Part shown: piece by piece, positions 10,033 through 30,541 of the stretch
Position numbering within the stretch: the first letter of the stretch is position 1
Layout of the letters: each line of letters opens with the position of its first letter
Source of the DNA: Lactiplantibacillus garii
GTDB taxonomy: Bacteria; Bacillota; Bacilli; Lactobacillales; Lactobacillaceae
Assembly: GCF_003885105.1 (NCBI RefSeq)
Contig: NZ_QWZQ01000020.1
Coordinates: forward strand, 1 to 56,989
Direction: 5' to 3'
Length of the DNA: 56,989 bases
Notes under the pieces: model-generated
What the model saw: the letters and a program-made list of their open reading frames with translations, nothing else
Told to the model about the DNA's origin: nothing
The model's database searches: none
Position numbers and translations under genes: made by a program

Positions 10033-10035
10033 TTT

Positions 10036-10101
10036 AAAACGCCTCCCAGTTCACTTATGCATGTCTAATTTTAGCATGAAAGTGAGCCTGGGAGGCGTTT
10101 T
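10036..10101 (-). terminator. Long hairpin: terminator upstream and RBS-masking leader downstream
   Basis: AAAACGCCTCCCAG with CAC (10036-10054) pairs with GTGA, CTGGGAGGCGTTTT (10082-10101). On the minus strand it follows the methyltransferase stop at 10105. Its last arm contains the GGGAGG ribosome site of the yisL-like gene. The loop holds TGCTAAAAT on the minus strand (10076-10068), an extended -10 box. Confidence 0.65.
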
Positions 10102-10104
10102 CTT

Positions 10105-11961
10105 TTAACGGGTGGGCGCTAGATTTTTTTGTTGAACGTAATTCACGAGTTCAATCACCGTTTTGAAGCGGTTAAACGGGGTCACGATGTGGACGCCGTT
10201 AAAACAGTCACAAATGCCGTCGATCAATTCCTTGGCAATTTGTAAACCGACTTCCCGTTCGTTACCGTCCAACTCCGCCTGGGCCATCCGGTCGCGGACC
10301 ACGCGCGGTAAGCGGATGCCGTGGACTTCGTGGTGTAAAAATTCGGCGTTGCGTTTGGATACCAGCGGCAACACGCCCACGAACACCGGCACGTGCACGT
10401 CGTTGGCCTTAAGCGCGTTGGCGAGCGCGGTGACGTTGGCCAGGTCAAACACCGGCTGGGTGATCACGTAGTCGCAACCGTACGCCAGTTTGCGCTCGAT
10501 CGACTTGGTGGAAACGGTGGTGCGGTAGGCGTTGGGGTTAAACGCGCCGGCGACCTTAAAATCACTGGCCTGTTTTAACGACTTCCCGGTCGGACCGACG
10601 CCGGTGTTAAACTGTTTGATCAACTTGATCAGTTCCACCGACCGGACGTCACCGACCGACGTGGCGCCGGGAAAGTCGCCCAATTTAGCCGGGTCGCCGG
10701 TCACGGCCAGGATGTCTTCAATTCCCAGGCTGTGCAGGCCCATAATCTCGGATTGTAAACCAATCAAATTGTGGTCGCGGGTCGTCAGGTGAACGATCGG
10801 CGTGATGCCGTAACTGAGTTTCAACTGGGCCGCGATGGTGGCGTTGGCGATCCGAACCTCGGCCAGCGAGTTGTCGGACAGGGTGATCCCGTCGACGCCG
10901 GCCGCCTTGAGCCGTTGCGCGCCGCGGAAAAATTTGGCCGTATCGAAGTCGCGCGGCGGGTCGAGTTCCACCAGGGCGGTCTTTTGGGTGGCGACCTTGG
11001 TCAAAAACGGGTGCTGGCGCTTCGTTGGCGTGAGCGGTTGGGATAACGGCTGGTTGGCCCGGTCACGGTGCGGCACGATGGCCCGGCTCGCCAGTCCGCG
11101 GACGGTGGCGGCGGTGTGCAGCGGCGTGGTCCCGCAGCAGCCGCCAATCAGGTTCAATCCTAGCTGGCGAAACCGTTCGGCGTAGGTTTCAAAGTATTCG
11201 GGTTCGCCGTCGTAAACGACCGCGCCGTCCTGGTCGGTCCCGGGTAGCCCGGAGTTCGGGTAGACCGCCAGCTTGACGTTAGTCGGGACCGTCAAATTTT
11301 CAAACGACTGGGCGAGGTAGTAGGGCCCCAACCGGCAGTTGGCGCCGACCACGTCCGCCCCGGCCGCGGCGAGTTGGCGAATGGCGGCGTTAAAGGTCGT
11401 TCCGTCCCGCAACACGCCCGGTGACAACATCGAAACGTTGGTGATCACCGGTAAATCGGTCGTGGCTTTGACCAGCTTTAAGGCGCTTAGTAGTTCGGGC
11501 AACTCGTAGTAGGTCTCCAGCAGGATCCCGTCGAGCTGCGGCGTGGCCAGCAGGGCGTCCAGTTGTTCGCGCAAACTGGCCCGCATTTCCGGCGGGGTGG
11601 CCCGTTGAATCCCCTGGTCGGTGTCGCCGGCCAACCCGCCGATGGTCCCAAGCAGGTAAACGGGGTGGTCGGCTTGCTGACGAGCCTTGACCGCCAGTTG
11701 AACGGCCGCCTGGTTAATGGCGGTGACCTGGTCTTCTAAGTTGTAGCGGGCCAGTTTTAACCGGTTGGCGGCGTAGGTGTTGGTCTGGATCACGTCGGCC
11801 CCGGCGTTCACGTAGGACTGGTGGACCCGTAAAATCGTGTCCGGGTGGGTCAGGTTGAGGGCTTCAAAGGCCGAAGCGATGCCGTAGTTGCCGTAAAGCA
11901 GGGTGCCCATCGCGCCGTCCGCCACTAAGACCCGTTGTTGTAACGCTTGTTTTAGATCCAT
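10105..11961 (-). CDS. Bifunctional homocysteine S-methyltransferase / methylenetetrahydrofolate reductase (YitJ type)
   Basis: The 618-residue fusion has an N-terminal methyltransferase barrel (1-300) opening with VADGAMGTLLY and carrying the zinc cysteines in GANC (about 205) and GGCCGTTP (about 273). A MetF-type reductase domain follows (about 325-610) with VTGDP and GVDYITQP-like motifs (here YGCDYVITQPVFD). It can make methyl-tetrahydrofolate and transfer methyl groups to homocysteine, as proposed for Bacillus YitJ. It follows metE by 12 nt in the same direction and should be co-transcribed under the Met T-box. MetE uses the methyl-folate this reductase supplies. Confidence 0.9.
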   Translation of the reverse strand: MDLKQALQQRVLVADGAMGTLLYGNYGIASAFEALNLTHPDTILRVHQSYVNAGADVIQTNTYAANRLKLARYNLEDQVTAINQAAVQLAVKARQQADHPVYLLGTIGGLAGDTDQGIQRATPPEMRASLREQLDALLATPQLDGILLETYYELPELLSALKLVKATTDLPVITNVSMLSPGVLRDGTTFNAAIRQLAAAGADVVGANCRLGPYYLAQSFENLTVPTNVKLAVYPNSGLPGTDQDGAVVYDGEPEYFETYAERFRQLGLNLIGGCCGTTPLHTAATVRGLASRAIVPHRDRANQPLSQPLTPTKRQHPFLTKVATQKTALVELDPPRDFDTAKFFRGAQRLKAAGVDGITLSDNSLAEVRIANATIAAQLKLSYGITPIVHLTTRDHNLIGLQSEIMGLHSLGIEDILAVTGDPAKLGDFPGATSVGDVRSVELIKLIKQFNTGVGPTGKSLKQASDFKVAGAFNPNAYRTTVSTKSIERKLAYGCDYVITQPVFDLANVTALANALKANDVHVPVFVGVLPLVSKRNAEFLHHEVHGIRLPRVVRDRMAQAELDGNEREVGLQIAKELIDGICDCFNGVHIVTPFNRFKTVIELVNYVQQKNLAPTR

Positions 11962-11973
11962 GGGCGTGACCTC

Positions 11974-14280
11974 CTACTTACTTGGCGTACTGAGCCGGGC
12001 TAACACGGCGTTGCGAGCGGCGACCATGTTCTTTAGCGAGGCTAACGTTTCCGGTTCCTGACGGGTCTTTAAGCCGCAGTCCGGGTTGATCCAGAACTGG
12101 TGGACGTCGATCACCCGCAGTGCCCGGGAAATATTGGCCTCAATTTCGGCTACGCTCGGGACCCGCGGACTGTGAATGTCGTAAACGCCCAGCCCAATCT
12201 CCTTGTCGTAACCGTTGTCCTCAAAGGCACTGATGATCTCACCGTGCGACCGCGAAGTTTCAATCGAGATCACGTCGGCGTCTAGGGCCTTGATGGTGTC
12301 GATAATATCGGCGAAGTTCGAGTAGCACATGTGGGTGTGAATCTGGGTGTCGTTGTGTACGCCGCTGGTCGTGATCTTAAACGAGTAGACCGCTTCGTCC
12401 AAGTAGGGCTGCCAGTGCCGCTGTTTGAGGGGCAGGCCTTCCCGTAACGCGGGTTCATCGACCTGGATGATTTTGATACCGGCCTTTTCCAGGTTCAGGA
12501 CTTCTTGCCGCAACGCGAGCGCGATTTGATTTTGGACCTGGGCCTTAGGGATGTCGTCACGGACGAAGCTCCAGTTGATGATCGTGAGCGGCGCCGTCAG
12601 CATGCCCTTGACCGGCTTGGTGGTCAAACTTTGCGCGTAAACCGATTCGGCGACCGTGATCGGCTGGGTGTAGGCGACGTCCCCGAAGATCACCGGCGGC
12701 CGGACCCCGCGGGACCCGTACGATTGGACCCAGCCGTTCTGGGTCGCGTAAAACCCGGTCAGCTTTTGCCCAAAGTATTCGACCATGTCGGTCCGTTCAA
12801 ACTCGCCGTGGACTAAGACGTCTAAGCCGAGGTCTTCTTGTAACTTGATCCACCGTTTGGTTTCCGCGTGCAAAAAGGCCTGGTAATCGGCGTCGCTGAG
12901 TTTGTGTTTGCGCCAAGCCGCCCGTTTGGCCCGTACTTCGCGGCTCTGCGGAAAACTGCCAATGGTGGTGGTGGGCAGCAGCGGTAAGTTCAAGCGCGCG
13001 TGTTGCAACCGGATGCGGGTGGTAAACGGCGCCTGGCGTTCAAAGGTTTGGCTGGCCAAGTGGGCTTCGGCGGCCCGCACGTCCGGGTTGTTGCGGTGAC
13101 TGGACCGGTTGAGCGCGTCTAAATTGGCCCGGTTGGTGTCTAAGGCCGCTTGGACGCTGGCCGCGCCGTCGTTGACGACTTGCGTTAAGACGTGCAGTTC
13201 CTGCAACTTCTGGTCGGCAAACGCCAACCCGCCGAGAAGCACCGGGTCGGCCTTGGTTTCGTTCTTGGTCGTGATCGGCACGTGCAGTAGCGAGTTGGCC
13301 GGTTGTAACCAGAGGTGCTGGTCGTCGACCACGGTCAGCAGCTGGTTGACTAGCGCGCCCTTGGCCTGCAGATCGCTGGCCCAGACGTTGTGACCGTCAA
13401 TGATCCCGGCGGCTAAAATTTTGTCTTGCGGGAAGCCGTCCGTCAACAAGTGGGTCAAGTTTTCCCCGTGGTCGTGCACGAGGTCTAAGCCGATCGCTTG
13501 GACCGGTAAGTTGACGACCTGCTCGTATAAGTCGAGGCTGTCAAAGTAGGTCTGCAGTTCCACGTTGAGCGTGGGCGCCGCCGCGTGCAGGGCGGACAAA
13601 GCGTCCGAATACGGCTGAATCTCGGCCGGCTCAGTGGTTTGGACCAGTGTGGGTTCGTCTAACTGCACCCACTGCACGCCGTTAGCCGCTAGTTCTTGGA
13701 AAACTTGTTCGTACAGCGGTAACAGTTGGGGCAGCAGTTCGGCCACCGCGGCGGCGTCGAGGTACTGGCCGTTACGTTTACCGAGTTTTAAGAAGGAGAC
13801 CGGGCCTAAAATGACCGGTTTGCCGGCGATTCCCAGTTCGGCTTTGGCTTCCTGGTAGTAACGCAGCCAGCGGTTATCCAGCAGCTGGAAGTGGACGTCG
13901 TCAAATTCGGGCACGATGTAGTGGTAGTTGATGTTGAACCACTTGGTCATTTCCGAAGCGACCGCCGTTTTGGTGCCGCGGGCCAGGGCGTAGTAGTCGC
14001 TGAGATCCAACTGGTGGTCAAAGTGGCCGTAGCGCTGCGGGATCACGTTAAACGCGGCGATCGTGTCAAGCACGTGGTCGTAGTCGGAGTTGTCGGCGAC
14101 CGGGATCAAGTCGACGCCTAACGCCCGTTGTTTTTTTAAGTTCGCTAACCGCAATTGTTTGGCGGTGGCGTGGAATTCCTGGGCGTCGAGTTGGCCCTTC
14201 CAAAAGTGTTCCAATAAGTGTTTCCATTCCCGGTGTTCCCCCAACCGTGGGTATCCTAAGTTACTACTAATGACAGTCAT
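11974..14280 (-). CDS. metE: Cobalamin-independent methionine synthase
   Basis: The 768-residue enzyme transfers methyl from methyl-tetrahydrofolate polyglutamate to homocysteine. The start at 14280 gives [20 protein letters not shown], the standard MetE opening, after AGGGGAG. The frame is open further upstream, but that part is the T-box leader. Two barrels are present. Zinc ligands are visible in HTHMCYSNF (about 648-656) and NPDCGLKTR (about 731). Length agrees with the family (about 750-770). The methyltransferase-reductase gene follows 12 nt later. Expression is controlled by uncharged tRNA-Met through the upstream T-box. Confidence 0.93.
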
Positions 14281-15701: not shown

Positions 15702-16727
15702 ATGTTAAATCAAGTTTATCGATTAGTTTCCGCCCGGCAGTTTGAAGTCCAAACGGTTGCTGAAACCGTCAGCGCCGACCAGATTGTCGTTCGGCCGCGC
15801 TTTTTATCGGTCTGTCACGCCGATCAGCGTTACTTTACCGGTCAGCGGCCGCAAAACGTCTTGCGGCAAAAGTTGCCGATGGCGCTGATCCACGAAGGGG
15901 TCGGAACGGTGGTCCGCGATCCGCAAGGCAAGTTTGCGCCGGGCACGCTGGTCGTCATGATCCCGAACACCCCGGTCGAACACGACCCGATCGTCCCGGA
16001 AAACTACCTGCCGAGCTCCAAGTTTCGTTCCAGCGGCTACAACGGCACCATGCAGGAATACGTCGTGTTAAACCGCGACCGCGTCCTGGCCGTTCCGGCC
16101 GACTTTGACCACCCGATGAGCGCCTTTATCGAAATGGTGTCGGTCGGCGTGCAGGGCTTGACCCAGTTGCAGGCCACGATGGACGCCGACGCGCGGGTGA
16201 TTGGCATCTGGGGTGACGGTAACCTGGGCTACATCGCTGCCACGCTGGTCAAACAACTGTTTCCCGACAGTCAACTGGTCGTCTTTGGGCGCCACCAGTC
16301 CAAACTGGACTACTTTTCGTTTGCCGACAAGACTTACTTAGTTGACCAGATCCCGGCCGACTTAAAAGTGAGCCAGGCCCTCGAATGTACCGGCGGCCGC
16401 GGGAGCGAAGCGGCCATCGCCCAGATCATCCGGCACATCCACCCGTTGGGGACCGCCGTTTTAATGGGCGTTTCGGAAGAACCTGTCGCCATCGACACCC
16501 GTTCCGTGTTAGCGGAAGGTTTAACGCTGCGGGGCGTCAGCCGCAGTGGCCGGGCTGATTTTGAACGCGCCATCCAAATCTTGACCGATAGTCCCGTGAC
16601 CCGCGAGCGGCTGCAAAACCTCGTCGGCCTGACCCAGAAAGTAAGCACCATTCAGGATATCATTGATTTCTTTGAACGGGACCTCACGAATTACTGGGGC
16701 AAGGCGGTGATGGAATGGGACGTCTGA
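15702..16727 (+). CDS. tarJ: Ribulose-5-phosphate reductase for CDP-ribitol synthesis
   Basis: The 341-residue medium-chain dehydrogenase family protein begins MLNQVYRLVSARQFEVQTVA. It has VCHADQRYFTGQRP (ligand region), a GIWGDGNLGYIAATL nucleotide-binding fold near 168 and LECTGGRGSEAAI. TarJ reduces ribulose 5-phosphate to ribitol 5-phosphate with NADPH and works with TarI. It starts 3 nt after tarI and overlaps the following transferase gene by 13 nt, so the operon is translationally coupled. Confidence 0.88.
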   Translation: MLNQVYRLVSARQFEVQTVAETVSADQIVVRPRFLSVCHADQRYFTGQRPQNVLRQKLPMALIHEGVGTVVRDPQGKFAPGTLVVMIPNTPVEHDPIVPENYLPSSKFRSSGYNGTMQEYVVLNRDRVLAVPADFDHPMSAFIEMVSVGVQGLTQLQATMDADARVIGIWGDGNLGYIAATLVKQLFPDSQLVVFGRHQSKLDYFSFADKTYLVDQIPADLKVSQALECTGGRGSEAAIAQIIRHIHPLGTAVLMGVSEEPVAIDTRSVLAEGLTLRGVSRSGRADFERAIQILTDSPVTRERLQNLVGLTQKVSTIQDIIDFFERDLTNYWGKAVMEWDV

Positions 16728-17852: not shown

Positions 17853-19757
17853 ATGTTACAACGACTAAAAAGGATCGCGCGCCGGATCGTCTACGGACGC
17901 CGGCGCAATGCCATGACCAACCAGGCGGTACCACCGGACGCGGCGGAAAACCGTGCCGACTTTTTGAACGAACCCCGGCTCGACCAGGACGCGGAATCGC
18001 TGATCAAACGTTCCGTGACCAAGTTGGACTTTAACAGTTCGTACTTGGTGATTGAAGGGCGGGCCTGGTTTGAAAAGTACCCGGAAAAAGACGCCGAAAA
18101 GATTGTGAAAAGTTTGATCTTGGTGGGTGAACCGGGCCAGGAGATCGAAGTTCCACTCGTGAACCAGGCGAGCCAGCAAGCGGACTTTCCGCAGGCCGGC
18201 TACCGCGGCAACGTCAATTTTTCGACCATCAGTGACGGCAAGCCGCTGGTCCCCGGGACGTATAAGGTGATGCTGCAGCTTAAACAGTACTTAGACAAGG
18301 GCTGGTTGATCCGGCGCACGAGCCTGGGCCTGATCCAGGACGCCGAACGTGACTTAAACTATACGACCAAGATGACCAGCTACGCGGCGAAGAGCAACAA
18401 GTCGTACAGCCTGATCTTCCGCTACAGTTTGGCGTCGCAGGCCCTCAGCGTCACGTCCTACAAGCTTAGCGACGTGAACCCGCTGGAAAACGAGTTCAGT
18501 GAGGATACCGGCATGGACAGCGCGGCGATGCGGGCCGTGAAACGCCGGGCCTTGCAGTGGTGGTACCGGTGGTATTGCTTACGCCCGGTTCGTTCCAAGC
18601 AGATCGCGTTCGTATCGGATAGCCGGGTCACGATTTCCGGGAACTTTGAGTTTATTTACCAGGAATTAAAACGCCGGCACACCGATTTTAAGATCGCGTT
18701 TTACTTAAAACCGAGCATCAAGGCCAAGAAATCCTGGAAGGAAGTGCGGACGCTGGCCAAGGCCCTGGCAACGAGTCGCTACGTGATCTTAGACGACTTT
18801 TACCCGCTGGTCTACCCGCTGCGCATCCGGGAAAACGCCGATTTGATCCAAGTCTGGCACGCGGTCGGGGCCTTTAAGACCTTTGGCTACAGCCGCTTGG
18901 GAATGCCCGGCGGTCCCAAGATCCAGTCGTTAAACCACCGCAACTACACCAAGGCACTGGTGTCCTCCCACAACGTCGCGGACAAGTATGCCGAGGGCTT
19001 TGGCATTAGTGACGAGAAGGTCGTGCCGCTCGGAATTCCGCGGACCGACGTCTTTTTTGACCAAGCGAAGCAGCGGACCATCCGGGAACGGTTGGAAGCG
19101 GACCTGCCGTTCATCAAGGGTAAAAAGGTGATCCTGTTTGCGCCGACCTTCCGGGGGAACGGCCAGCAGTCGGCCTACTACCCGTTTGAAATGCTGAATT
19201 TTAAGGCCATCTACGAAGCGCTGCACGAGGATTACGTGTTCTTACTGAAAATTCACCCGTTCGTACAGAACAAGCCAACGCTGCCGTACGAGTACGCCGA
19301 CTTTTACTACGACGTCTCGGACTACCGCGAGATCAACGACTTGTTACTGGTCGCGGACCAGTTGATCACCGATTATTCGTCGGTTTGTTTCGAATACGCG
19401 CTGCTCAACCGGCCGATGGTGTTCTTTGCGCCGGACCTCGCGGATTACATGCAGTCACGGAGTTTTTACTTCAACTACTTCGACTTCATCCCGGGGTCGT
19501 TGGCCGAAAATACCGGCGACCTGATCGAGCAGCTGCAACACCCGCAAGTTAACCAGGCTAAGCTGGACGGCTTCGTCAACTTCTTTTTTGACGACCTGGA
19601 CGGCCATTCGACGGCCCGCTTCGTCGACGCCCTCGAAAACAACTTTGCGGATGCCGACACCGAACCGGTGACCGACGAAAACGGCACGGTACTCAGTGAA
19701 GACGGTAAGGTGATCCCCGATTGGGGCAAAAAGGCGCAGCCGGAGAAAAATCACTGA
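17853..19757 (+). CDS. tarL: Poly(ribitol-phosphate) teichoic acid polymerase, TarL/TagF-like
   Basis: The 634-residue protein has a basic N-terminus (suited to membrane docking), an extra N-terminal domain (about 45-200) and a C-terminal transferase domain with IQVWHAVGAFKTFGYSRLG (about 330-348), TFRGNG and LITDYSSVCFEYALL (about 505). These are the motifs of TagF/TarL polymerases, which extend teichoic acid from CDP-ribitol or CDP-glycerol. Neighbouring tarIJ suggests ribitol. It is the last gene of the operon, 25 nt after the previous one, with a strong terminator behind it. Confidence 0.85.
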   Translation: MLQRLKRIARRIVYGRRRNAMTNQAVPPDAAENRADFLNEPRLDQDAESLIKRSVTKLDFNSSYLVIEGRAWFEKYPEKDAEKIVKSLILVGEPGQEIEVPLVNQASQQADFPQAGYRGNVNFSTISDGKPLVPGTYKVMLQLKQYLDKGWLIRRTSLGLIQDAERDLNYTTKMTSYAAKSNKSYSLIFRYSLASQALSVTSYKLSDVNPLENEFSEDTGMDSAAMRAVKRRALQWWYRWYCLRPVRSKQIAFVSDSRVTISGNFEFIYQELKRRHTDFKIAFYLKPSIKAKKSWKEVRTLAKALATSRYVILDDFYPLVYPLRIRENADLIQVWHAVGAFKTFGYSRLGMPGGPKIQSLNHRNYTKALVSSHNVADKYAEGFGISDEKVVPLGIPRTDVFFDQAKQRTIRERLEADLPFIKGKKVILFAPTFRGNGQQSAYYPFEMLNFKAIYEALHEDYVFLLKIHPFVQNKPTLPYEYADFYYDVSDYREINDLLLVADQLITDYSSVCFEYALLNRPMVFFAPDLADYMQSRSFYFNYFDFIPGSLAENTGDLIEQLQHPQVNQAKLDGFVNFFFDDLDGHSTARFVDALENNFADADTEPVTDENGTVLSEDGKVIPDWGKKAQPEKNH

Positions 19758-19811: not shown

Positions 19812-19852
19812 AAAAAAGTGCCAAATTCCAATTCGGAATTTGGCACTTTTTT
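19812..19852 (+). terminator. Terminator of the tar operon
   Basis: AAAAAAGTGCCAAATTCC pairs with GGAATTTGGCACTTTTTT over a 5-nt loop, a perfect 18-bp stem with flanking A/T tracts, usable in both directions. Confidence 0.9.
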
Positions 19853-19861
19853 GCTTGAGAT

Positions 19862-20005
19862 GGCAGCACTTTAGGTGAGCGCAAAGCCGAATGGGGCTTA
19901 AAGTACGGGCGCTATAGTTTCTACAATGTTGATCTTTTGCGTGACCTTCATGTTATAGAAAAAGACCGCCAATTAGTTCCCAATAGCTACTGGTTAATTG
20001 AATAG
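19862..20005 (+). pseudogene. Short orphan frame, possible tail of a lost gene
   Basis: A 47-codon open frame reads GERKAEWGLKYGRYSFYNVD and LLRDLHVIEKDRQLVPNSYW then stop at 20003-20005. It has no start codon or ribosome site and is closed upstream at 19856. The amino acid content looks protein-like, so it may be the C-terminus of a deleted gene at the insertion point of the toxin-antitoxin pair. Confidence 0.25.
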
Positions 20006-20287
20006 TTCATCATGCGTTCCGGTACGGACCAGGACAAGTTGTAAGTGTTCATTAGTGAAACGGCACATTAATAACCAGTCACTTTCTAAGTGTAACTCGC
20101 GAAAATCCCGATATTTTCCCTTTAACGGGTGGTCTCGATATTTTGTTCGTAATAAATCTTTATCCTGAATGATTAAAGCGTGGACCGTGTCAAAGACTTT
20201 TTGAACTGAACGATTTTTCTTTTTGACCATTCGTTTTAAATCCCGACGGAAGGTTGGGGGTTGATCAATCGTTATTTTTGAGTTCAT
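19994..20287 (-). CDS. YafQ-family mRNA interferase toxin
   Basis: The 97-residue RelE/ParE-fold toxin begins MNSKITIDQPPTFRRDLKRM. Family features are KYRDHPLKGKYRDFRELHLE, SDWLLMCRF and the C-terminal VRTGTHDELF, the YafQ pattern in which a late His acts in ribosome-dependent mRNA cleavage. The start at 20287 overlaps the antitoxin's last codons by 23 nt, and the open frame upstream of it is a shadow of that gene. It forms a standard type II operon with the DinJ-like antitoxin. Confidence 0.88.
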   Translation of the reverse strand: MNSKITIDQPPTFRRDLKRMVKKKNRSVQKVFDTVHALIIQDKDLLRTKYRDHPLKGKYRDFRELHLESDWLLMCRFTNEHLQLVLVRTGTHDELFN

Positions 20288-20561
20288 TGAGAACACTTGC
20301 CTGCCAGTCCGCTTCATGGTCAAAGTGTTGAACTTGACCGGTCCGTGCTGCGTAGACGGCCTTCGCAGTATCATTGACTAATTGTGGTCGAAACGGTAAG
20401 CCGTTTTCGGCAATGCTTTGTTTTAAAAATAGATTAATCGCCGTTGTCATATCCATACCAAGTGCTTTAAATAAATGGCTAGCGGCATCACGATCGGATT
20501 CTAGGACGTTCACACTTAACTTTCTTTTAATCATTGGTTGATCTTTAACGTTATTTTTCAA
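20265..20561 (-). CDS. RelB/DinJ-family antitoxin
   Basis: The 98-residue protein has an N-terminal ribbon-helix-helix (RKLSVNVLESDRDAASHLFK then ALGMDMTTAINLFLKQSIAE), with the LPFRP motif of the family and a C-terminal tail that wraps the toxin. The TTG start at 20561 follows AGGAAGTG at good spacing. It should neutralise the overlapping YafQ toxin and repress its own promoter. Confidence 0.87.
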   Translation of the reverse strand: MKNNVKDQPMIKRKLSVNVLESDRDAASHLFKALGMDMTTAINLFLKQSIAENGLPFRPQLVNDTAKAVYAARTGQVQHFDHEADWQASVLNELKNND

Positions 20562-21065
20562 ATCAATTCACTTCCTAACAATTATGACTGGCATCAAGTC
20601 ACCAGTTAACCTATCGTCATTTAACATTGTTAAGCCTTAAATGCTCTTGATAAACACCCAATGTCTAGCTAAATGTGCAAGCGGGGAGGGCCACCAATTG
20701 AATCGGAGGCCTGATTTTATTTTGAACGTGCTTGGTTAACGGGGAAACCGGGCCAACTTTTTTGATTGGTTAGTGTCGTTGACTGGTCGCCCAACGATTT
20801 CCGCCCTGAACTCGTTTTCACTGGCGACGAATGGTGAATTGTCAGGCTTCTTAGCATGTTCATAAATTATGCGGTTTTCAGTAAAAGGGTTCAGTTTAAA
20901 CCCCGCCGTTTCGACGGCTACACTGGCTAAGTGACGCGGTGTTCATAGAAAGGTCATACCTTTTTCCATTTACGGCAATTGGTTTGAACAATCTTCTTGG
21001 TAGGATAATTTGTGAACCCAGAAGTTAGTCCCATTTATCAAAATAAGAAGTGAAGGATGATCTGT
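20562..21065. other. Gene-free region before the sulfonation operon
   Basis: I see no credible gene here. Near the antitoxin, ACTGG/CCAGT half-sites (about 20588-20612) may form its operator. Before the sulfotransferase gene, GATAAT at 21004-21009 could be a -10 box, but the -35 (TTGGTT, 20979-20984) is poorly spaced. GAAGGA at 21052-21057 is the ribosome site for ATG 21066. Composition is lower in GC than the flanking genes. Confidence 0.4.
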
Positions 21066-22700
21066 ATGAGTCAAAATTTATGGCAACGCCTGTTTAGTCG
21101 CCAACAACCCAAACAAGCAGTGTTAGTTCTAGGCAGTGGCCGTTCCGGAACTTCCGTGATGACCAAGTGCATTAATTTGATGGGCGTGTCGCTGGGCACC
21201 GACAACCTGCTCGCACCCAGCAAACGGATCAACCCGAAAGGTTACTTTGAAAATAAGGACGTCATCAAAATCCACAAATCACTCGGGAGCAAGATCCGTT
21301 ACCGACCGGCCGCGCCGGGATACTACGATCGCCCCGCCATTAAAAATGACCGGGCGGCGCTCACGAGTTACTTACAAAATTTCTTTGCCGACCAGGCGAC
21401 GCTGGTCATTAAGGATCCGCGGATGAACGATTACGTGCAGCTTTGGCAACACGTTTTGGCCGACATCAACGTCCAACCCGCCGAAGTGATCCTGTTGCGC
21501 AACCCGCTGGACGTGGTCAACTCCAATTCTCGGGCTTGGCACCGCGACACCACGCTGGCGATGCGCCAGTGGCAAGTGCGCACGTTGTTATCCCTAAAGG
21601 ACACCCAGCCGCAGTCGCGGATCCTGGTGACTTATGAGGACCTCTTTGAACAAACCATGCCGACCTTAAAACGGATCGCCACCAAGTTTGACCTGCCGTG
21701 GCCGGAAGACGAGGGGCTGCTGCAAGCCCAGCTGGAAGATTTTATCGACCCCAACTTGCAACACAGCGATAGCCGCGAAAGTTTGGCCGACTTCGAAGCC
21801 CGCCCGGACGTTCCTAAGGACGTTAAGGCGTTGTACCTGTTAGGGCGTCAAGCCGCGGCCGACCCGGACTTCTTCGGTTCGACCGAGTTTCAACAACGCA
21901 TCGACGACTTGATGCAGGACTACTTAAAACGTTACGGGGCGCTGTACCGCGACTTTAACGCGAAGATCAACAGCAAGACCTTCTTCGTGTTTGGTCCGGA
22001 CCAGGCCGCCGTTGACACCGTCAATGAACTCCTGGCGCAAAACCGGGTCGAAATGGACGGGCCGAGTGGCAAAGCGCACGCCGTGGCGACGCAACTGGCC
22101 GAACAATTAGCGGCGCACCAGCTCGACGTTGCCACGTACCCAAAGGACTACGCGGTCGTGGAAGCGAAGCAGACCCTGAACAACTACCTGCGTAAAAATG
22201 CCAAACAGAAAAGCCGCTGGGGCGTGGGCGACGTGCTTAACGCCGACATCGTGGAAATGTTAACGACCGTCAGTGCCGAACTGGGCGCCGATACCCATAA
22301 CGTGGTGATCGTGCCCGACCTGACAACGGTGACGGACGACGACGTTCTGCGGGTCCAAGTACAGCGCCTCGTCCGGACGCTTAAGGCGGTCCAAACGCCG
22401 CCGTACTTAGTGGTGATGGCCGATCAGCTGGACCAACCGCTGACGAGTGAACAGCTGGCCGCGTTCGTGGCCGCGACCCCGACGACCACCGAACTAGCGC
22501 CCGATACGCAGTCCGATGAGGCCTTGCAACTGCGGGCAACGCTGGACTGGCACGAAACGGCGACCATCCTCACGGAACTGTGCCGCAACGCCAGCCAGGA
22601 CGCGACGGCCCAGTCCACGCTGAACCACTTTATTAATTTAAATGCCGATAAAATTTTAACGACGAAAGGTGATCAATATGCAAACAGTATACGGAATTAA
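21066..22700 (+). CDS. PAPS-dependent sulfotransferase with a long C-terminal extension
   Basis: The product is about 544 residues. [20 protein letters not shown] (about 18-37) is the 5'-phosphosulfate-binding loop, NPKGYFEN follows, and [20 protein letters not shown] (about 142-160) is the 3'-phosphate-binding motif of sulfotransferases. The second half (about 290-544) is acidic and matches no family I recognise. GAAGGATG fits ATG 21066 better than ATG 21057. It heads an operon with ATP sulfurylase and APS kinase, which make its PAPS donor, and overlaps sat by 23 nt. The acceptor is unknown. No signal peptide is seen, so it acts in the cytosol. Confidence 0.85.
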
Positions 22701-23853
22701 GGCCCACGGGGGTCAACTCATTAACTTAGAAGACTTTAGTGAAACGACCGCTCAAGCGGCGGCCCAGTTACCCAGTTTGACGATCAACGCTTGGAACCTC
22801 TCCGATTTGGAATTGATCGGGATCGGGGGCTTTAGCCCGCTGACCGGTTTTATGACCAGCGACGACTACCACGCAGTCGTCAAAAACATGCACTTAATGA
22901 GCGGCGTTCTCTGGAGCATTCCCATCACGCTGCCGGTCACTAAGGAGCAGGCCGCGGCCATTGAACTCAATTCAACGATTGCTTTGAAGGACCAATCCGG
23001 GGTCATCTACGGTACAATGGTGGTTGAGGATAAGTTTGTTCCCGATAAGCAGTTAGAGGCGCAAAACGTCTACGGGACGACCGACTTAGCCCACCCGGGG
23101 GTCAAACGGTTATTTGAAAACGGCGACGTTTACCTCGGGGGTGCCATCAAGTTGCTCAAAAAGCCGAGCCACGGTGAATTTAGCGACTACTACATGGAAC
23201 CCATCGAGACCCGCAAGCTCTTTCACGACCTCGGCTGGAAAACCATCGTCGGCTTCCAAACGCGTAACCCCATTCACCGGGCCCACGAGTACATCCAAAA
23301 GTTGGCGTTGGAAAACGTTGACGGGCTGTTTTTGAACCCGCTGGTTGGTGAAACTAAGGCCGACGACATTCCGGCCGACGTTCGTATGGAAAGCTACAAA
23401 ACGATCCTGAAGTATTACTACCCGAAAGACCGGGTCCGCTTAGTAATCTACCCGGCCGCGATGCGTTACGCCGGCCCTAAGGAAGCCATCCTGCACGCCA
23501 TTGTCCGCAAAAATTACGGCTGTACCGACTTTATTGTGGGTCGCGACCACGCCGGGGTGGGAGACTACTACGGCACCTACGAAGCCCAGGAATTGATCAC
23601 CGCGGTTCAAAGTGAACTCGGGATGCACTTCTTCAAGTTCGACAACGCCTTTTACTGCAAAAAGTGCGGGTCGATGGCGACCCAGAAGACCTGCCCGCAC
23701 CCAGCGAGTGACCACATTTCACTTAGTGGGACTAAGGTCCGCAAGATGCTGGCCGAAGGAACCGTTCCGCCGAAGGAAGTTTCCCGCCCAGAAGTGGCCC
23801 AAGTCTTGATCGACGGACTTAAACGCAAACGCGAAGCGGAGGTGCACGCATGA
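22678..23853 (+). CDS. sat: Sulfate adenylyltransferase (ATP sulfurylase)
   Basis: The 391-residue enzyme makes adenylyl sulfate (APS) from ATP and sulfate. Signature motifs are [17 protein letters not shown] (about 191-207) and [13 protein letters not shown] (about 284), and a C-terminal zinc-type cluster [16 protein letters not shown] precedes [12 protein letters not shown]. Length fits the monofunctional bacterial/archaeal-type Sat. AAAGGTG supports ATG 22678; the GTG nine nt earlier overlaps that site. It overlaps the sulfotransferase end and the APS kinase start (ATGA). Lactobacilli generally lack sulfate assimilation, so its presence here is notable. Confidence 0.93.
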
Positions 23854-24473
23854 TCAAATCCGACAACATTACCTGGCACGCGTCGCAGGTGACCAAGCAG
23901 CAGCGCCAAACCTTATTGAACCACAAGAGCGCGGTCCTCTGGTTTACCGGGTTATCCGGTTCGGGCAAGTCGACGGTCGCCAACGCGGTCGAACGGGCCC
24001 TCTACGAACAGCAGGTCACCAGTTACGTGCTTGACGGTGATAACATGCGCTTTGGGTTAAACAAAAACCTCGGCTTCTCCGCGGCGGATCGGACGGAAAA
24101 CATTCGCCGAATCGGTGAGGTGGCGAAGTTGTTCGTCGACGCCGGCACGATCACGCTGACGGCCTTCATTTCACCGTACCGGGCCGACCGCGACCAGGTG
24201 CGCGCCCTGCTGGACGCCGATGAATTTATCGAAGTGTTCGTGGATACGCCGCTAGCCGTGTGTGAACAGCGCGACGTGAAGCAGCTCTACGCTAAGGCGC
24301 GGCGCGGTGAGATCACCGGTTTTACCGGCATCGACGCGCCGTACGAGGCCCCGGAAAAACCGGAGATCACGCTGGATACGTCCGCCCAGCCGTTGGAAGC
24401 CTCGGTGGCCCAAGTCATGACCTATTTGCGTGAACACGGGATCGTTCCGGCCGTGACTGCCGATGAAGAGTAA
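23850..24473 (+). CDS. cysC: Adenylyl-sulfate (APS) kinase
   Basis: The 207-residue kinase phosphorylates APS to [22 protein letters not shown] (about 31-48) is the Walker A loop, and [20 protein letters not shown] then [15 protein letters not shown] are the APS-site motifs. [14 protein letters not shown] and [20 protein letters not shown] complete the family pattern. It overlaps sat by ATGA with GGAGG upstream and overlaps the following DHH gene by 11 nt. No PAPS reductase or sulfite reductase gene is present, so its product probably feeds the sulfotransferase. Confidence 0.94.
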
Positions 24474-25416
24474 CGGCTTATTAACGGCGATCCTGCAAAA
24501 CATTCAGCGGGCTGACCGGATCCTCGTTTACCGTCATACCAATCCCGACCCCGACGCGATCGGCTCGCAACTGGGATTGGTGCAGCTGTTAAAAACGGCC
24601 TTTCCCAGTAAGCAGGTCTTGCCGGTCGGGGTGGTGCCGGGCCATTTGACTTGGATCGGGGTCGGCGCGCCCGAACTGGTCACGCCGCAAACCGGCGATT
24701 TGGTGATCACGGTCGACTGTGCCAACCACGGCCGCTTAGCCGGCAATTTGCCGGACGACGCCTTTATCATCAAAATCGACCACCATCCTAACCGCGACCC
24801 GTACGGGCAGTTGAACTGGGTCGACGACCGCTACAGCAGTTGTGCCGAAATGGTGTACGACCTGTTTGCCGCGCACCCGGCGGAGCTGACCATGACGACC
24901 AGTATCGCCGCCAAACTGTACGCCGGGATTCTTGGCGACACGGTCCGGTTTTCAACCCCGGAAACTTCGGCTAAGACCCTCGCGACGGCCGCCGAGTTGG
25001 CCGCTTACGGCATCGATATCGCGACCATCAGCCATCACGAAATGGACCTGACCCCGAAGTTGAGCAAACTCTACGGCTACGTGCTGAGCCACCTGAACGT
25101 GGACGCGTTGGGGCTGGCCCACGTCACGCTGTCGCAGACGGTGTTACGGACGCTGGGCGTGCCGTACGACGAGACCGACGCGATCGTGCCGCTGCCGGGC
25201 AATTTGACCAACGTCAAGGTCTGGCTGATTTTTGTCGCGACGCCGCAAGGGACTTACCGGGTTCATTTCCGGTCTAAACACCTGCCGGTTGACGGGGTGG
25301 CCAAAGCCTTTAACGGTGGCGGTCACGCGTTAGCCAGCGGGGCGTTTGTGGCGGACGCCGGGGTGGTTGCCGACGTGATTGCGACCATGCAGACTGAACT
25401 TAAGAAACAACTTTAA
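24463..25416 (+). CDS. DHH/DHHA1 phosphoesterase, PAP phosphatase/nanoRNase (NrnA-like)
   Basis: The 317-residue protein has DHH-domain metal motifs: [15 protein letters not shown] (about 25-39), [11 protein letters not shown] (about 85), [11 protein letters not shown] (about 106) and GILGDTVRF, plus the DHHA1 motif [14 protein letters not shown] near 285. NrnA-type enzymes degrade short RNAs and convert PAP to AMP. Inside an operon that generates PAPS and uses a sulfotransferase, clearing the inhibitory by-product PAP is the natural role. The start overlaps cysC by 11 nt. Confidence 0.85.
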
Positions 25417-25442
25417 TTAAAATGAAAAGGGGTGACGGGGCG

Positions 25443-27185
25443 ATGCGTAAACGAAACTGGCTCATCGCGCTTGTCGTGGTGGTGTTGATCGCGGTTGGGG
25501 GCTTTTTTGGCTACCAGCGTTACGGTCAATCAACCACTTCGACGACGACCACGAGCAGCAAGGTGCGCTCGGACAGTGCCGTCAAAAAGGATATCAATAC
25601 CCGGTTAGTGAAGACCGAGGTTAAAGCCCAGTCGAGTACGACGGCGGCTTTGAAAAAGACGGCTAAGAGTAGCAGTTACACCGTTAATAACATGTATACC
25701 AAGGTGAACCCGTACGGAACTTCACCGTTGTCCGCGAAGGTGATCTTTAAGACCAGTTCCGCGGCGAAGGTCAGTTACACGGTGGTCGGCAAGAGTAGTA
25801 AGACTTCGATCTCGAATAGTGTTAATAAGTACACGACTAGTCACAATTTGACCGTGCTGGGCTTATACGCCGGTTACAACAACACGGTTAAAATTAAGGT
25901 GACCTATAAGAGTGGCAAGGTCGTTAATAAAACGATCCATTTAAAGACGGCCAAGTTACCGACGTCGCTCAGCAGTATCAAAATCAACGTGAAGACGGCT
26001 AACAAGAAAAAGATGGTCGTGGGGACCGGGAACGCCAAGCTGACCTTCATGGTGCGGACAACGATCTCCGGTAAAAACCAGTCTAAGAACTTTACCTTTG
26101 GGCTGGACGCCGACGGGAACATCCGCTGGTACACGACCAAACCGACGTCGCACATTTTTAAACAGTTAAATAACGGGCATTTGTTGATCTGGACCAAGTC
26201 CAACAGTAGTAATTCCTACTTCGACGAGTTGGTTGAAATGGATTACACTGGTAAAGTTTATAAAACTTATAAGTTCAACCATAAAGCCTGGGGCAAGGCC
26301 AAGGGTTCTAAAAAGCAGAACCATAACCAAGTCCACCACGACGTGACCGAATTGCCAAACGGTGACCTGATTGCCACCGTTTCGGACGGCGGTCGGACCT
26401 ACGTCGAGGATACGATGATCGTGATCTCCCACAAGACCGGGAAAATTACCAAGGTCATTAACATGAAGAACATCCTGCCTTCGAAATTTTATACTAAGTA
26501 CAACGCCACCAGTTCCAATAAATACATGGGCAAGAAGGACTGGTTCCACCAGAATTCGGTCTACTATGATAAGACCGATAAGAGTTTGATTATTTCCAGC
26601 CGGAACCAGAACCTGGTCATGAAGATCGATTACAAGACCGAAAAGATCAAGTGGATCCTCTCCAGCAAACCGACCTCGGCTTGGCCGAAGTCTTACCGCA
26701 AGTACCTGCTAAAGGCCAGCGGCAAGATCTCCTGGCCGGGCGGGCAACACGCCGCCATCGTCGACCCGACGACGCTGGGTAAATCCGGTTCGCTGAACCT
26801 GCTGATCTTTAATAACAACGTGGCGGTCGGGACGACTAAGAAGTCACTGGAAGCCTCGTCTGGTAAGTATTCGGAAGGTGTGGAATACCACATTAACGAA
26901 AAGACCAAGACAATCTCGCAGGTCGGCAGTTACGGTAAATCGTTAGGTAAGAGCAACTTTGCCAACATTATTGGTTCGAACCGCTATTTGAGCAAAACCA
27001 ACCGCTTGATCGACTTCGGTTGGCTCAACAACGGTAAGTCGGCCAACATTATCGAGTATGATACCAAGACCAAGAAACAGGTTTACAACGTCGAATTATC
27101 GAACTTAGGCAGTGGCGGCTACGTCTACCGCGCCGAACGCTTCTCGTTGTACCCGACGAAGCATAGTTACGGGATCAATGAATAG
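25443..27185 (+). CDS. Membrane-anchored aryl-sulfate sulfotransferase (ASST family)
   Basis: The 580-residue protein has an N-terminal membrane anchor or signal (WLIALVVVVLIAVGGFFGYQ), a Ser/Thr/Lys-rich stretch (about 30-75), an Ig-like segment, and from about 190 a beta-propeller of ASST type. Family motifs are NHNQVHHDVTELPNGDLIAT (about 294-313), DWFHQNSVYYD (about 366), SSRNQNLVMKID and GGQHAAIVD (about 433), with conserved histidines where ASST enzymes carry their catalytic His. Such enzymes move sulfuryl groups between phenolic compounds without PAPS. RBS AAGGGGTG favours ATG 25443 over 25422. It acts outside the membrane and ends the operon. Confidence 0.83.
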   Translation: MRKRNWLIALVVVVLIAVGGFFGYQRYGQSTTSTTTTSSKVRSDSAVKKDINTRLVKTEVKAQSSTTAALKKTAKSSSYTVNNMYTKVNPYGTSPLSAKVIFKTSSAAKVSYTVVGKSSKTSISNSVNKYTTSHNLTVLGLYAGYNNTVKIKVTYKSGKVVNKTIHLKTAKLPTSLSSIKINVKTANKKKMVVGTGNAKLTFMVRTTISGKNQSKNFTFGLDADGNIRWYTTKPTSHIFKQLNNGHLLIWTKSNSSNSYFDELVEMDYTGKVYKTYKFNHKAWGKAKGSKKQNHNQVHHDVTELPNGDLIATVSDGGRTYVEDTMIVISHKTGKITKVINMKNILPSKFYTKYNATSSNKYMGKKDWFHQNSVYYDKTDKSLIISSRNQNLVMKIDYKTEKIKWILSSKPTSAWPKSYRKYLLKASGKISWPGGQHAAIVDPTTLGKSGSLNLLIFNNNVAVGTTKKSLEASSGKYSEGVEYHINEKTKTISQVGSYGKSLGKSNFANIIGSNRYLSKTNRLIDFGWLNNGKSANIIEYDTKTKKQVYNVELSNLGSGGYVYRAERFSLYPTKHSYGINE

Positions 27186-27271: not shown

Positions 27272-27328
27272 AAAAAAGAATGGTCACAAAAAATTGTTTT
27301 TTAGATTTTTTGTGACCATTCTTTTTAA
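27272..27328 (+). terminator. Terminator of the sulfonation operon
   Basis: AAAAAGAATGGTCACAAAAAA pairs with its complement ending TGTGACCATTCTTTTT. The stem is long and perfect with a T tract, about 90 nt after the last stop. Confidence 0.85.
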
Positions 27329-27763: not shown

Positions 27764-28222
27764 ATGAAAAAATTAATTTCAAGCTTGTTATTACTGCTAG
27801 CATTAACTTGTGGACTAGCCGGCGCAACGACCGCTGATGCAGCAACTTGGCATCACGGTAGTTTTCCAAAAACCGTTCGCGGGTATTGGCACCAAACGAT
27901 TAAGAAAAATAAAACGACCGTGCAGTACCGTTATACCAAAAAGTACCAGGATGCTCAGTTATTGGGCAAAGTAAAGGGCAAGTGGGAACACGCGATGCTG
28001 AATAGGGTAAATACCTATAATGGTCCAGTTCGCTACAAAGTGACTGGGCATCATAAATATTATTTTGCAGCTACCAAAAAGCAAGTTAAAAATCGTTTCT
28101 TCACGGGGGCTGATCGGATGATTCTAACGAAAAAAGGTCATCGGTTGATCATGAAACTACACTATAAAGGTGCCCATAAATGGACTAAGCCCACAACGCT
28201 GCACGCTGGGAAAGTTAAGTAG
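27764..28222 (+). CDS. Secreted basic protein, function unknown
   Basis: The 152-residue product has a classical signal peptide (KKLISSLLLLLALTCGLAGA, cleavage probably after ATTADA, about residue 27). The mature part is small and strongly basic, rich in Lys, His, Tyr and Trp, beginning ATWHHGSFPKTVRGYWHQT. This resembles the short secreted proteins common in lactobacilli, but no enzyme motif is present. It stands alone between two terminators, downstream of a strong extended -10 promoter, and lies between the sulfonation operon and the SLC13 permease. Confidence 0.75.
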   Translation: MKKLISSLLLLLALTCGLAGATTADAATWHHGSFPKTVRGYWHQTIKKNKTTVQYRYTKKYQDAQLLGKVKGKWEHAMLNRVNTYNGPVRYKVTGHHKYYFAATKKQVKNRFFTGADRMILTKKGHRLIMKLHYKGAHKWTKPTTLHAGKVK

Positions 28223-28765: not shown

Positions 28766-30541
28766 ATGACCCTCGAAATTGCAATTGTTTTACTCACCTT
28801 ATTAGTTTCCTTCGTTTTAATGGCGATGGAAGTCACGACGCCCAACGCCGTCATTCTCTGCGCGCTGGCGTTTCTAATGTTTGTCGGTATTCTGTCACCC
28901 AGTGACGCTTTGGCCGGGTTTGCCAACGACGGGTTGGCCACGATCGCCTTAATGTACATCGTGGCTTACGCCATCGCCAAAAGTAACGTGATCACCCGCC
29001 TGTTTAACCGGGTGCTCGGTGCCGGTAACCATGAAAAAAAGTCACTGTTCCGCCTGCTTGCCAGCGTGAGCGTGATCTCACCGTTTATGAACAACACGCC
29101 AATCGTGTCGACGCTGACGCCGATGATCCAGCGCTGGTGTAAACAAAAGGGACTGGCGGTCTCCAAGTTTTTGATCCCGTTATCCTATGCCACGATTTTA
29201 AGCGGCCTGTTAACGGTGCTCGGGACGTCCACTAACCTGGTTGCCCAGGGGTTGTTGTCCAAGTACGACTTGAAAAAATTTGGCACCTTTGACCTGGCCA
29301 TCGTGGGGATTCCCATCACGATCGTCGGCCTGGTATACCTGCTGACGATTGGCTACCGCTTGTTGCCGACCTACCACGGCAGTTCGGTGGACGACGTGGT
29401 GGCCGCACCGAACGATTACCTGATTGAAATGTCGATTGGACCGGATTTTGAGCACCTTAACCAGACCGTGGTCGCCGCCAAACTGCGCAACCTGACCAGC
29501 TCGTTTTTAGTGGCCATCAACCGGCGCGGTGAGTCGATCATTCCGGTCACGGATGGCACGGTGCTGCGGCTTGGCGACCGGTTGTACTTCACCGGCGCGG
29601 TCGACAGTATTAACGATTTGATCCAAATTAAGGGGCTGATCCCCAGTACCGAAAAAATTAACATGGACGACGTCACCAACGAACACGCCCGCTTACTGGA
29701 AGTCACGATCCCCGACACGTCTAGTTTGGTCAACCAAACCGTTAAATCGGCGCGGTTCCGGAACGTGTTTGGCAGCGTGGTGGTGGCGATTCACCGCAAC
29801 ACCGTCAACTTAAAGGGCCAAATTGGCCGCATTAAGCTTAAGGGCGGTGATAACCTGGTCGTGATCACCACTAACGAAGCGGACGAAATGGATAACTTAA
29901 AGGACCTCCACGTGTTTAACGTGCAGGAAATGCAGCCCCGGCAGCACACGTACAAGGACTTTCTACCGATTGTCTTGTTAGTGGCGACCATCTTGTTGTC
30001 AACGCTGAACGTGTTTGACCTGTTTGTCGGCTTAGCGGCCAGCTGCGTGATCCTGTTTGTGACTAAGTGTGTTTCAGTCAGCGACATCGTCAAAGCCGTT
30101 GACATGAACGTGCTGTTCTTAGTCGCCAGCAGTTACGGCCTGGGACTCGCGATGTCCAACGTTGGCGCCGACAAGTTTATCGCCAAATCGTTAGTGGCGG
30201 TGGCCGGCAACGCGTCGCCGTTGATCTACATGTTCTTGATCTATTTTATTACCAACTTCCTAACGGCGATCCTGTCCAACGCGGCGGCGCTGTCACTGAT
30301 GTTTCCAATCGTCGTTTCGGCGGCGAAGTTAGAAGATTTGCCGGTGATGATGCTGGTGATGCTGATCACCATCGCGGCCACCGCCGATTTCTCGACGCCG
30401 ATTGGCTACCAAACCAACCTGATCGTTTACGGCCCGGGGCACTACAAGTTTACCGACTACTTCAAGGTCGGTATCCCGCTGAATTTGATCTGTATGGTGA
30501 TCTGCGTTTTCGTGACGTACTACTACTATATGGTGATTTAA
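28766..30541 (+). CDS. SLC13/DASS-type anion permease with two TrkA-C domains (candidate sulfate transporter)
   Basis: The 591-residue membrane protein starts MTLEIAIVLLTLLVSFVLMA and has two sets of helices (about 1-195 and 405-591). They flank a soluble middle with two TrkA-C (RCK_C) repeats (about 215-290 and 310-385, each with an R-F/L-G-D or K-G-G-D turn). NNTPIVSTLTPMIQRW and TSTNLVAQGLL match the membrane-hairpin motifs of the SLC13 family. This layout is typical of SAC1/SLT-like proteins, several of which carry sulfate. The in-frame upstream ATG at 28706 lacks a ribosome site. Position shortly after the sulfonation operon suggests sulfate supply. Confidence 0.82.
   Translation: MTLEIAIVLLTLLVSFVLMAMEVTTPNAVILCALAFLMFVGILSPSDALAGFANDGLATIALMYIVAYAIAKSNVITRLFNRVLGAGNHEKKSLFRLLASVSVISPFMNNTPIVSTLTPMIQRWCKQKGLAVSKFLIPLSYATILSGLLTVLGTSTNLVAQGLLSKYDLKKFGTFDLAIVGIPITIVGLVYLLTIGYRLLPTYHGSSVDDVVAAPNDYLIEMSIGPDFEHLNQTVVAAKLRNLTSSFLVAINRRGESIIPVTDGTVLRLGDRLYFTGAVDSINDLIQIKGLIPSTEKINMDDVTNEHARLLEVTIPDTSSLVNQTVKSARFRNVFGSVVVAIHRNTVNLKGQIGRIKLKGGDNLVVITTNEADEMDNLKDLHVFNVQEMQPRQHTYKDFLPIVLLVATILLSTLNVFDLFVGLAASCVILFVTKCVSVSDIVKAVDMNVLFLVASSYGLGLAMSNVGADKFIAKSLVAVAGNASPLIYMFLIYFITNFLTAILSNAAALSLMFPIVVSAAKLEDLPVMMLVMLITIAATADFSTPIGYQTNLIVYGPGHYKFTDYFKVGIPLNLICMVICVFVTYYYYMVI

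Follow-up and report, generated by a model that had tools for sequence, protein, structure and literature searches.

A stretch of 56,989 nucleotides from Lactiplantibacillus garii (contig NZ_QWZQ01000020.1 of assembly GCF_003885105.1, forward strand; below, the window) holds at positions 21066-27185 of the plus strand one tight operon of five genes, which, judged by gene content, is best read as dedicated to sulfonation and not to sulfate assimilation. The genes encode, in order, a sulfotransferase that would use 3'-phosphoadenosine 5'-phosphosulfate (PAPS), the two enzymes that make PAPS by way of adenosine 5'-phosphosulfate (APS), a presumed phosphatase for the by-product 3'-phosphoadenosine 5'-phosphate (PAP), and an arylsulfate sulfotransferase (ASST). 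The reading that we hold to be, on balance, probable is that these genes form a dedicated sulfonation pathway, in which the two transferases act in series and the final acceptor is a glycopolymer of the cell envelope. The operon is made up as follows.

21066..22700, plus strand: sulfotransferase, PAPS-dependent type (Pfam PF13469 Sulfotransfer_3, E 3.9e-06, 27.7 bits against a cut-off of 27); catalytic N domain at about residues 1-290, C domain probably a degenerate P-loop/sulfotransferase-like domain
22678..23853, plus strand: ATP sulfurylase, sat (PF01747/PF14306, E 1.3e-96; NCBIfam NF003166, 556.6 bits, cut-off 387)
23850..24473, plus strand: APS kinase, cysC (PF01583, E 1.5e-70; NCBIfam TIGR00455, 278.9 bits, cut-off 138.7)
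24463..25416, plus strand: NrnA-like DHH/DHHA1 phosphatase, presumed PAP phosphatase (PF01368/PF02272, E 8.5e-18)
25443..27185, plus strand: ASST (PF05935, E 2.2e-83; PF17425, Ig-like N domain)
27276..27323, plus strand: terminator-like hairpin, 20 pairs with a T tail

The first four genes overlap by 23, 4 and 11 nt, and 26 nt separate the stop of the NrnA-like gene from the start of the ASST gene. The hairpin behind the ASST gene has the longest stem among the terminator-like matches listed, a class of matches that overall does no better than in shuffled sequence (16 vs 15.7). An original prediction, made from the letters of the window alone, had described five coupled genes with one terminator at their end, and this layout is confirmed. 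All five of the families that it named were recognised, but it overlooked a sixth member, which belongs to the set although it lies further downstream:

28766..30541, plus strand: DASS/SLC13-type anion symporter with TrkA_C domains, presumed sulfate importer (PF03600, PF00939, PF02080)

The symporter scores 141.3 bits on TIGR00785, below the cut-off of 198.6. Among the 21 Lactiplantibacillus genomes in our sample of 397 genomes of the family Lactobacillaceae, it is present in exactly the 15 that bear the operon and in none of the other six.

That the operon serves sulfonation is argued by what is missing around it. The PAPS reductase family PF01507 was not found in the window's own genome, the one genome searched for it, and was found in 14 of 14 control genomes; the sulfite/nitrite reductase family PF01077, which covers the cysI part of sulfite reductase, cysJ lying outside the search, was found in none of the 21 genus genomes and in 11 of the 14 controls. 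Assimilatory sulfate reduction requires a PAPS or APS reductase and a sulfite reductase, and by these profiles the window's own genome has neither. Since sulfite reductase is missing from all 21 genus genomes, the pathway would end in sulfonation and not in reduced sulfur. The original prediction had reached the same conclusion from the absence of both reductases in the window, and had named a cysH or cysJI elsewhere in the genome as the finding that would overturn it; as far as PF01507 and PF01077 can tell, there is none.

The layout of the operon is not due to chance, because its gene order recurs. In 17 further loci (14 from Lactiplantibacillus and three from Pediococcus, compared over 20 kb around each), the order sulfotransferase-sat-cysC-ASST is kept without exception, and the NrnA-like gene is present in 16; the search for the five-gene order that the original prediction had proposed thus succeeds in every locus, save for this one gene. 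The symporter stands near the operon in all 17, downstream of it in Lactiplantibacillus and directly before the sulfotransferase gene in the three Pediococcus loci. In two loci, L039 and L045, the symporter frame is split by an in-frame stop while the other operon genes are open; a sequencing error is possible there. An APS kinase match at E 0.001 is found in 85 of the 397 genomes, and strong matches (E 3.2e-68 or better) only in 18, namely 15 of the 21 Lactiplantibacillus and three Pediococcus. The remaining 67 look like chance matches to other P-loop proteins, since none of them is better than E 3.3e-5. The sulfotransferase and cysC are found in the same 15 genus genomes. A scan of contigs with the sulfotransferase alignment, which relies on a pair of short peptide patterns and may have missed copies, gave at least 16 loci: eight in Lactiplantibacillus, two in Pediococcus (cellicola and ethanolidurans) and six others with 22-37% identity over the best segment.

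Compared with their counterparts in the window, the Pediococcus ASSTs are 76-78% identical, the products of sat 75-78%, those of cysC 70-75% and the symporters 71%; the sulfotransferases reach 56% and the NrnA-like proteins 47-49%. Set against the 72-75% of the core protein ArgS, these values do not support a recent horizontal arrival between Lactiplantibacillus and Pediococcus. That the operon is borne on plasmids was also rejected: the 46 plasmid records that match the sulfotransferase are all below 60% identity and in none of them does a match reach 80% query coverage, and the 16 that match the ASST are likewise all below 60%.

The cluster as such is in print. In L. plantarum, the genes lp_1378-lp_1381 and lp_1385 are described as sat, cysC, a phospho/sulfo-esterase, an extracellular ASST and a sodium/sulfate symporter (PMC4895336), the same content as here, and in its passages on these genes that paper guesses that the cluster uses sulfate from plant polysaccharides. 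The suggestion in the original prediction that the system may be undescribed must therefore be given up. ASSTs on their own are frequent in the family, where 122 of the 397 genomes and 21 of 40 genera have a match. The present results differ from the printed account in two respects. The cluster is there called unique to L. plantarum, whereas it occurs here in 15 of 21 genus genomes and in three Pediococcus; and the account of lp_1378-1381 in PMC4895336 names no sulfotransferase, which here comes first in the operon and which is present also in the record titled L. plantarum EGD-AQ4 (L049). We are thus dealing with known enzyme families in a new setting, and with a cluster for which a different interpretation has been published.

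The sulfotransferase would be the first of the two transferases. In all 18 copies the loop GSGRSGTS is invariant, and a motif of the type RNPxDVVxS is present, with one H for N; we take the former to be the 5'-phosphosulfate-binding loop and the latter the 3'-phosphate-binding motif. A structural model with a mean predicted local distance difference test (pLDDT) score of 82.5 has as its top fold matches a curacin domain and tyrosylprotein sulfotransferase (best E 5.4e-04, two matches at E 0.001 or better, template modelling (TM) score by target about 0.5). Motifs and predicted fold together place the protein in the class of PAPS-dependent sulfotransferases. The C domain is variable among the 18 sequences, lacks the GSGRSGTS loop and is shorter in Pediococcus. 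Modelled alone (pLDDT 87.7), it matches best a tyrosylprotein sulfotransferase, with E 2.1e-03 and TM 0.44, amid P-loop kinases, and a profile comparison of the N and C halves is collinear but weak (probability 5.9%, P 0.0018); a domain duplication, with a P-loop/sulfotransferase-like fold and weak matches for the C half, is likely, not proven. Distant relatives, with about 24-31% identity among the rows listed, occur in the 46 plasmid records. Seven of these neighbourhoods were examined, one of which is without annotation; in the other six, from Cereibacter (two, C. sphaeroides), Paracoccus, Sphingobium, Rhodobacter and Novosphingobium, the neighbours are glycosyltransferase, capsule, rhamnan, lipopolysaccharide or exporter genes. 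Because all six annotated neighbourhoods hold polysaccharide-type genes, the evidence leans towards an acceptor of glycan type, distant as the relatives are.

The NrnA-like protein has the DHH and DHHA1 domains and scores 178 bits on the NCBIfam NrnA equivalog model, below the cut-off of 350. The name given to it in the original prediction, an NrnA-like PAP phosphatase, therefore holds for the family, but the protein is a divergent paralogue and is not filed as NrnA; its function as a PAP phosphatase is presumed from its family. A housekeeping NrnA, 41% identical to the operon copy, is encoded on another contig (C158) of the same genome. The extra paralogue is found in 14 of the 15 Lactiplantibacillus operon genomes, and each of the 21 genus genomes has the other copy, with an identity of about 40%. 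At locus L037 (genome G342, 9789-12329), the gene is missing between cysC and the ASST gene, and the other NrnA, at 39% identity, remains.

The second transferase is assigned to the class PF05935 by its family profile and by its predicted catalytic residues, whose roles are those given for the Escherichia coli enzyme EcAST in PMC13426309: the residues aligned to His252, His356, Asn358 and Arg374 are invariant in the operon ASSTs, and in the place of EcAST His436, a position not aligned column by column, there is a QH motif, while Thr501 fell outside the comparison. In a comparison where three candidates were scored per genome and matches were listed at E 1e-60, an ASST at least 76% identical to that of the window occurs in the 18 operon genomes only, and the next best match listed has 55% identity. 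By this measure the operon ASST is a dedicated orthologue. Thirty ASSTs from elsewhere, drawn from the top profile matches, share 42-51% identity with it, and a lipobox-like start is found in 17 of these 30 and in none of the 18 operon ASSTs. That such an orthologue is tied to the operon and is without the lipobox-like start suggests that it shares a task with the other genes. Its N-terminus is hydrophobic by eye and is read as a membrane anchor, and from this and from its family it is presumed to work at the outer face of the membrane. The second, extracytoplasmic transfer of the original prediction consequently fits the layout, with a cytosolic PAPS enzyme and an outer ASST, but the outer side itself is presumed.

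From enzyme families, gene linkage, co-inheritance and the missing reductive branch, all read from the sequence, the following pathway can be proposed, where we infer the cargo of the symporter, the substrate of the NrnA-like enzyme, the location of the ASST, the shuttle, the order of transfer and the acceptor. The symporter would import sulfate, which Sat and CysC would convert to PAPS. The two-domain sulfotransferase would put the sulfuryl group of PAPS on an acceptor in the cytosol, and the NrnA-like enzyme would clear the PAP that is formed. Outside the membrane, the ASST would then move the sulfuryl group from an aryl sulfate to the final acceptor. Since ASSTs are independent of PAPS, an aryl sulfate must intervene if the two enzymes act in series, and this shuttle may be a phenolic or pyrone-like sulfate. 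A glycopolymer of the cell envelope would be the most likely final acceptor, and the first candidate is poly(ribitol phosphate) wall teichoic acid or the sugars attached to it.

The candidate is suggested by a second gene set in the window, whose content and order resemble those of tarIJKL in L. plantarum (PMC3511166):

14997..15698, plus strand: tarI, D-ribitol-5-phosphate cytidylyltransferase (NCBIfam NF001183, 364 bits, cut-off 166)
15702..16727, plus strand: tarJ-like alcohol dehydrogenase (Pfam ADH_N over cut-off; named from its position, as in tarIJKL of PMC3511166)
16715..17827, plus strand: tarK-like polyol-phosphate transferase (PF04464; best NCBIfam model TarL, 96.7 bits, under cut-off)
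17853..19757, plus strand: tarL-like ribitol-phosphate polymerase (PF04464; NCBIfam TarL, 391.3 bits, under the cut-off of 1000)

Here tarI is assigned by its model, and tarJ, tarK and tarL by domain and order, with the TarL model scores under cut-off. The tar set is probably not co-transcribed with the operon, since the 1.3 kb or so between them contains two small opposite-strand genes and a hairpin near 19820-19855 (seen by eye and not among the terminator-like matches listed). The link is one of co-occurrence. At a threshold of E 1e-40, tarI is present in 32 of the 397 genomes, namely in 18 of 18 with the operon and in 14 of 379 without it, and within Lactiplantibacillus in 15 of 15 operon genomes and one of the six others (Fisher p 2.9e-4, ignoring kinship). 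Non-operon ASSTs lean the opposite way (3 of 15 operon genomes vs 4 of 6 others). In an ArgS tree that covers 32 genomes (21 Lactiplantibacillus and 11 Pediococcus), the operon and tarI each change six times; of 6 independent pairs, 4 to 6 show tarI going with the operon and none shows it going the opposite way. On account of the distribution of tarI over the family, the leading candidate for the acceptor, though unproven, is ribitol-phosphate wall teichoic acid, with a chance of being the right one that we put well on the low side. The full proposal, that Lactiplantibacillus and some Pediococcus make sulfated wall teichoic acid by means of an aromatic shuttle charged inside the cell and an outer, membrane-anchored ASST, is equally tentative and, as it stands, unlikely.

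A number of observations weigh against the proposed pathway, several of them against the teichoic acid. Once kinship is considered, the tarI link is not significant (sign test over both genera, median p 0.0625, range 0.031-0.125). Within Lactiplantibacillus there are three supported pairs, tarI follows the operon in two or three of them (p 0.25-0.5), and with so few pairs no significance can be attained. One gene served as control, the fumarate-reductase-like FR2, and it shows a weaker lean in the same direction (12 of 15 vs 2 of 6). Only in five of the 18 genomes (that of the window, G038, G076, G246 and G196) does tarI lie within 15 kb of the sulfotransferase gene, two times upstream in the same direction and three times downstream and convergent; in the remaining 13, tarI sits on a different contig or at a distance of at least 240 kb. 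The tar genes of Pediococcus run convergent to the operon. A single deletion could take out both tarI and the operon where they are neighbours, and part of the joint losses may thus be due to linkage and nothing else. According to PMC3511166, tarIJKL is expressed at an extremely low level in L. plantarum WCFS1, a strain with teichoic acid of the glycerol type. The relatives of the sulfotransferase that adjoin polysaccharide genes are just about 24-30% identical to it. As to the relay, the operon contains no synthase for an aryl carrier, a statement confined to the operon since no genome-wide search was made. The ASST may instead use aryl sulfates from plants or hosts, since among the 122 genomes with an ASST there are 104 in which no strong match to APS kinase is found. 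Finally, no sulfonated product of these bacteria was found among the titles and abstract starts listed from the literature, which is no proof of absence, since most subscription journals are missing from that collection.

The same enzymes might have other uses. Consider first that the sulfotransferase detoxifies plant phenols with sulfate and that the ASST shuffles sulfuryl groups among phenols outside the cell, with no envelope polymer involved. The known hosts of the operon are largely plant-associated. ASSTs do act on phenols (PMC13426309); furthermore, in late exponential phase the expression of lp_1378-1381 and lp_1385 of L. plantarum rises by factors of 5.3 to 16.9 in pineapple juice (PMC4895336). 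Such conjugation needs, however, no second, outer transferase, it leaves the association with tarI unexplained, and the six annotated neighbourhoods of the distant sulfotransferase relatives are polysaccharide clusters; phenol handling is for these reasons unlikely, though far from negligible. Alternatively, the two transferases could have independent uses: the sulfotransferase would act directly on a glycan that is exported or part of the envelope, and the ASST would scavenge external aryl sulfates, sharing a transcript with it only because both concern sulfate. The many ASST-bearing genomes with no strong APS kinase match speak for such scavenging, but the operon ASST, being a separate orthologue confined to operon genomes and devoid of the lipobox-like start of many others, does not look like one of these enzymes, which makes separate uses rather improbable. 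Assimilation, or the use of plant-polysaccharide sulfate proposed in PMC4895336, would agree with a metE-like gene (named by eye) upstream of the operon in 12 of the 17 further loci, but it is rejected on gene content as highly improbable, because the printed guess is left without its reductive half and the operon holds two transferases and neither a reductase nor a sulfatase. A dedicated pathway with the transferases in series and an envelope glycopolymer as acceptor stays the preferred reading.

Upstream of the operon there is a further conserved feature:

20942..20967, plus strand: conserved element with the matrix consensus TTCATGAATTCATCACATTTTTTTCG; the sulfotransferase gene starts about 100 nt downstream of it

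In an alignment of upstream regions, this 26-nt element is found about 100-130 nt before the sulfotransferase gene in 15 Lactiplantibacillus copies, among which that of the window scores weakest (23.9); the matrix was built from the same 15 sites, so that their scores are not independent. Before the three Pediococcus sulfotransferase genes there is no match over 13. Weak copies, scoring 14.0-19.5, occur before the symporter gene in loci L031, L032, L035, L036 and L040, and they are a lead only, because unrelated places score up to 16.0. No regulatory RNA exceeds its Rfam gathering score at the operon, and promoter-like sites are no more frequent than in shuffled sequence (7 vs 10.4).

The window has some other features around these genes. 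Between the ASST gene and the symporter gene, at 27764-28222, a small secreted-looking protein of 152 amino acids is encoded, which has no Pfam match and of which no counterpart was seen in any of the 17 further loci. At 19994-20561 of the minus strand, in the gap that separates tarL from the operon, lie two overlapping small genes that resemble by eye a RelE/RelB-type toxin-antitoxin pair, of which no relative was seen in those loci. At 4370-6817, adjoining a LysR-type gene, there is a gene for a fumarate-reductase-like protein of 815 amino acids with an NADPH-FMN-reductase-like front (names by eye), and near-full-length relatives of this protein occur in 14 of the 21 genus genomes, the window's own included. 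A GP20-b cis-regulatory RNA of Rfam is found at 283-353 (43.4 bits, gathering score 36.2).

For a relay from PAPS to an ASST there is, to our knowledge, one precedent, the sulfation of caprazamycin in Streptomyces. There, presulficidins carry the sulfonate from PAPS to caprazamycin (PMC4924298), and Cpz4 is an arylsulfotransferase (AST)-type enzyme that prefers sugar hydroxyls (PMC13426309), so that, as in the present proposal, an AST-type enzyme acts after a PAPS-dependent step; the shuttle in Streptomyces is a small aromatic compound. As in that system, a PAPS sulfotransferase and an ASST belong together, here in one operon in 18 of 18 copies. The systems differ in that the product is there a nucleoside antibiotic and the cluster contains the pyrone-making Cpz6, whereas here the operon has no carrier gene and the ASST is encoded beside genes for sulfate uptake and activation. 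A further relative is AssT of E. coli CFT073, which has a Dsb pair of its own and is not known to have PAPS genes nearby. This enzyme (3elq, 4p04) is of the same family as the operon ASST, and the residues at catalytic positions are conserved. EcAST is periplasmic (PMC13426309), whereas the ASST studied here has a hydrophobic N-terminus, PAPS genes upstream and no Dsb genes in its operon. As regards teichoic acid, the account of L. plantarum tarIJKL in PMC3511166 reports no sulfonation in the parts that concern us, and sulfate is not among the components listed there. PMC11468790 and PMC11576661 mention neither Lactobacillus nor plantarum, and none of six sulfur terms occurs in PMC3271238.

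For most ASSTs the natural acceptors have yet to be identified (PMC13426309). In the present operon, gene linkage and orthology connect an ASST with a PAPS supply and a presumed sulfate importer of its own, and since the food bacteria concerned are genetically tractable, its donor and acceptor can be sought by single-gene deletions. If the envelope of these bacteria is sulfated, this would supersede the printed guess of sulfate use, and it would matter for the charge, the phage binding and the immune recognition of a widely used probiotic group. If, more specifically, the acceptor is wall teichoic acid, the operon would represent a PAPS-to-ASST relay that serves a cell-wall polymer.

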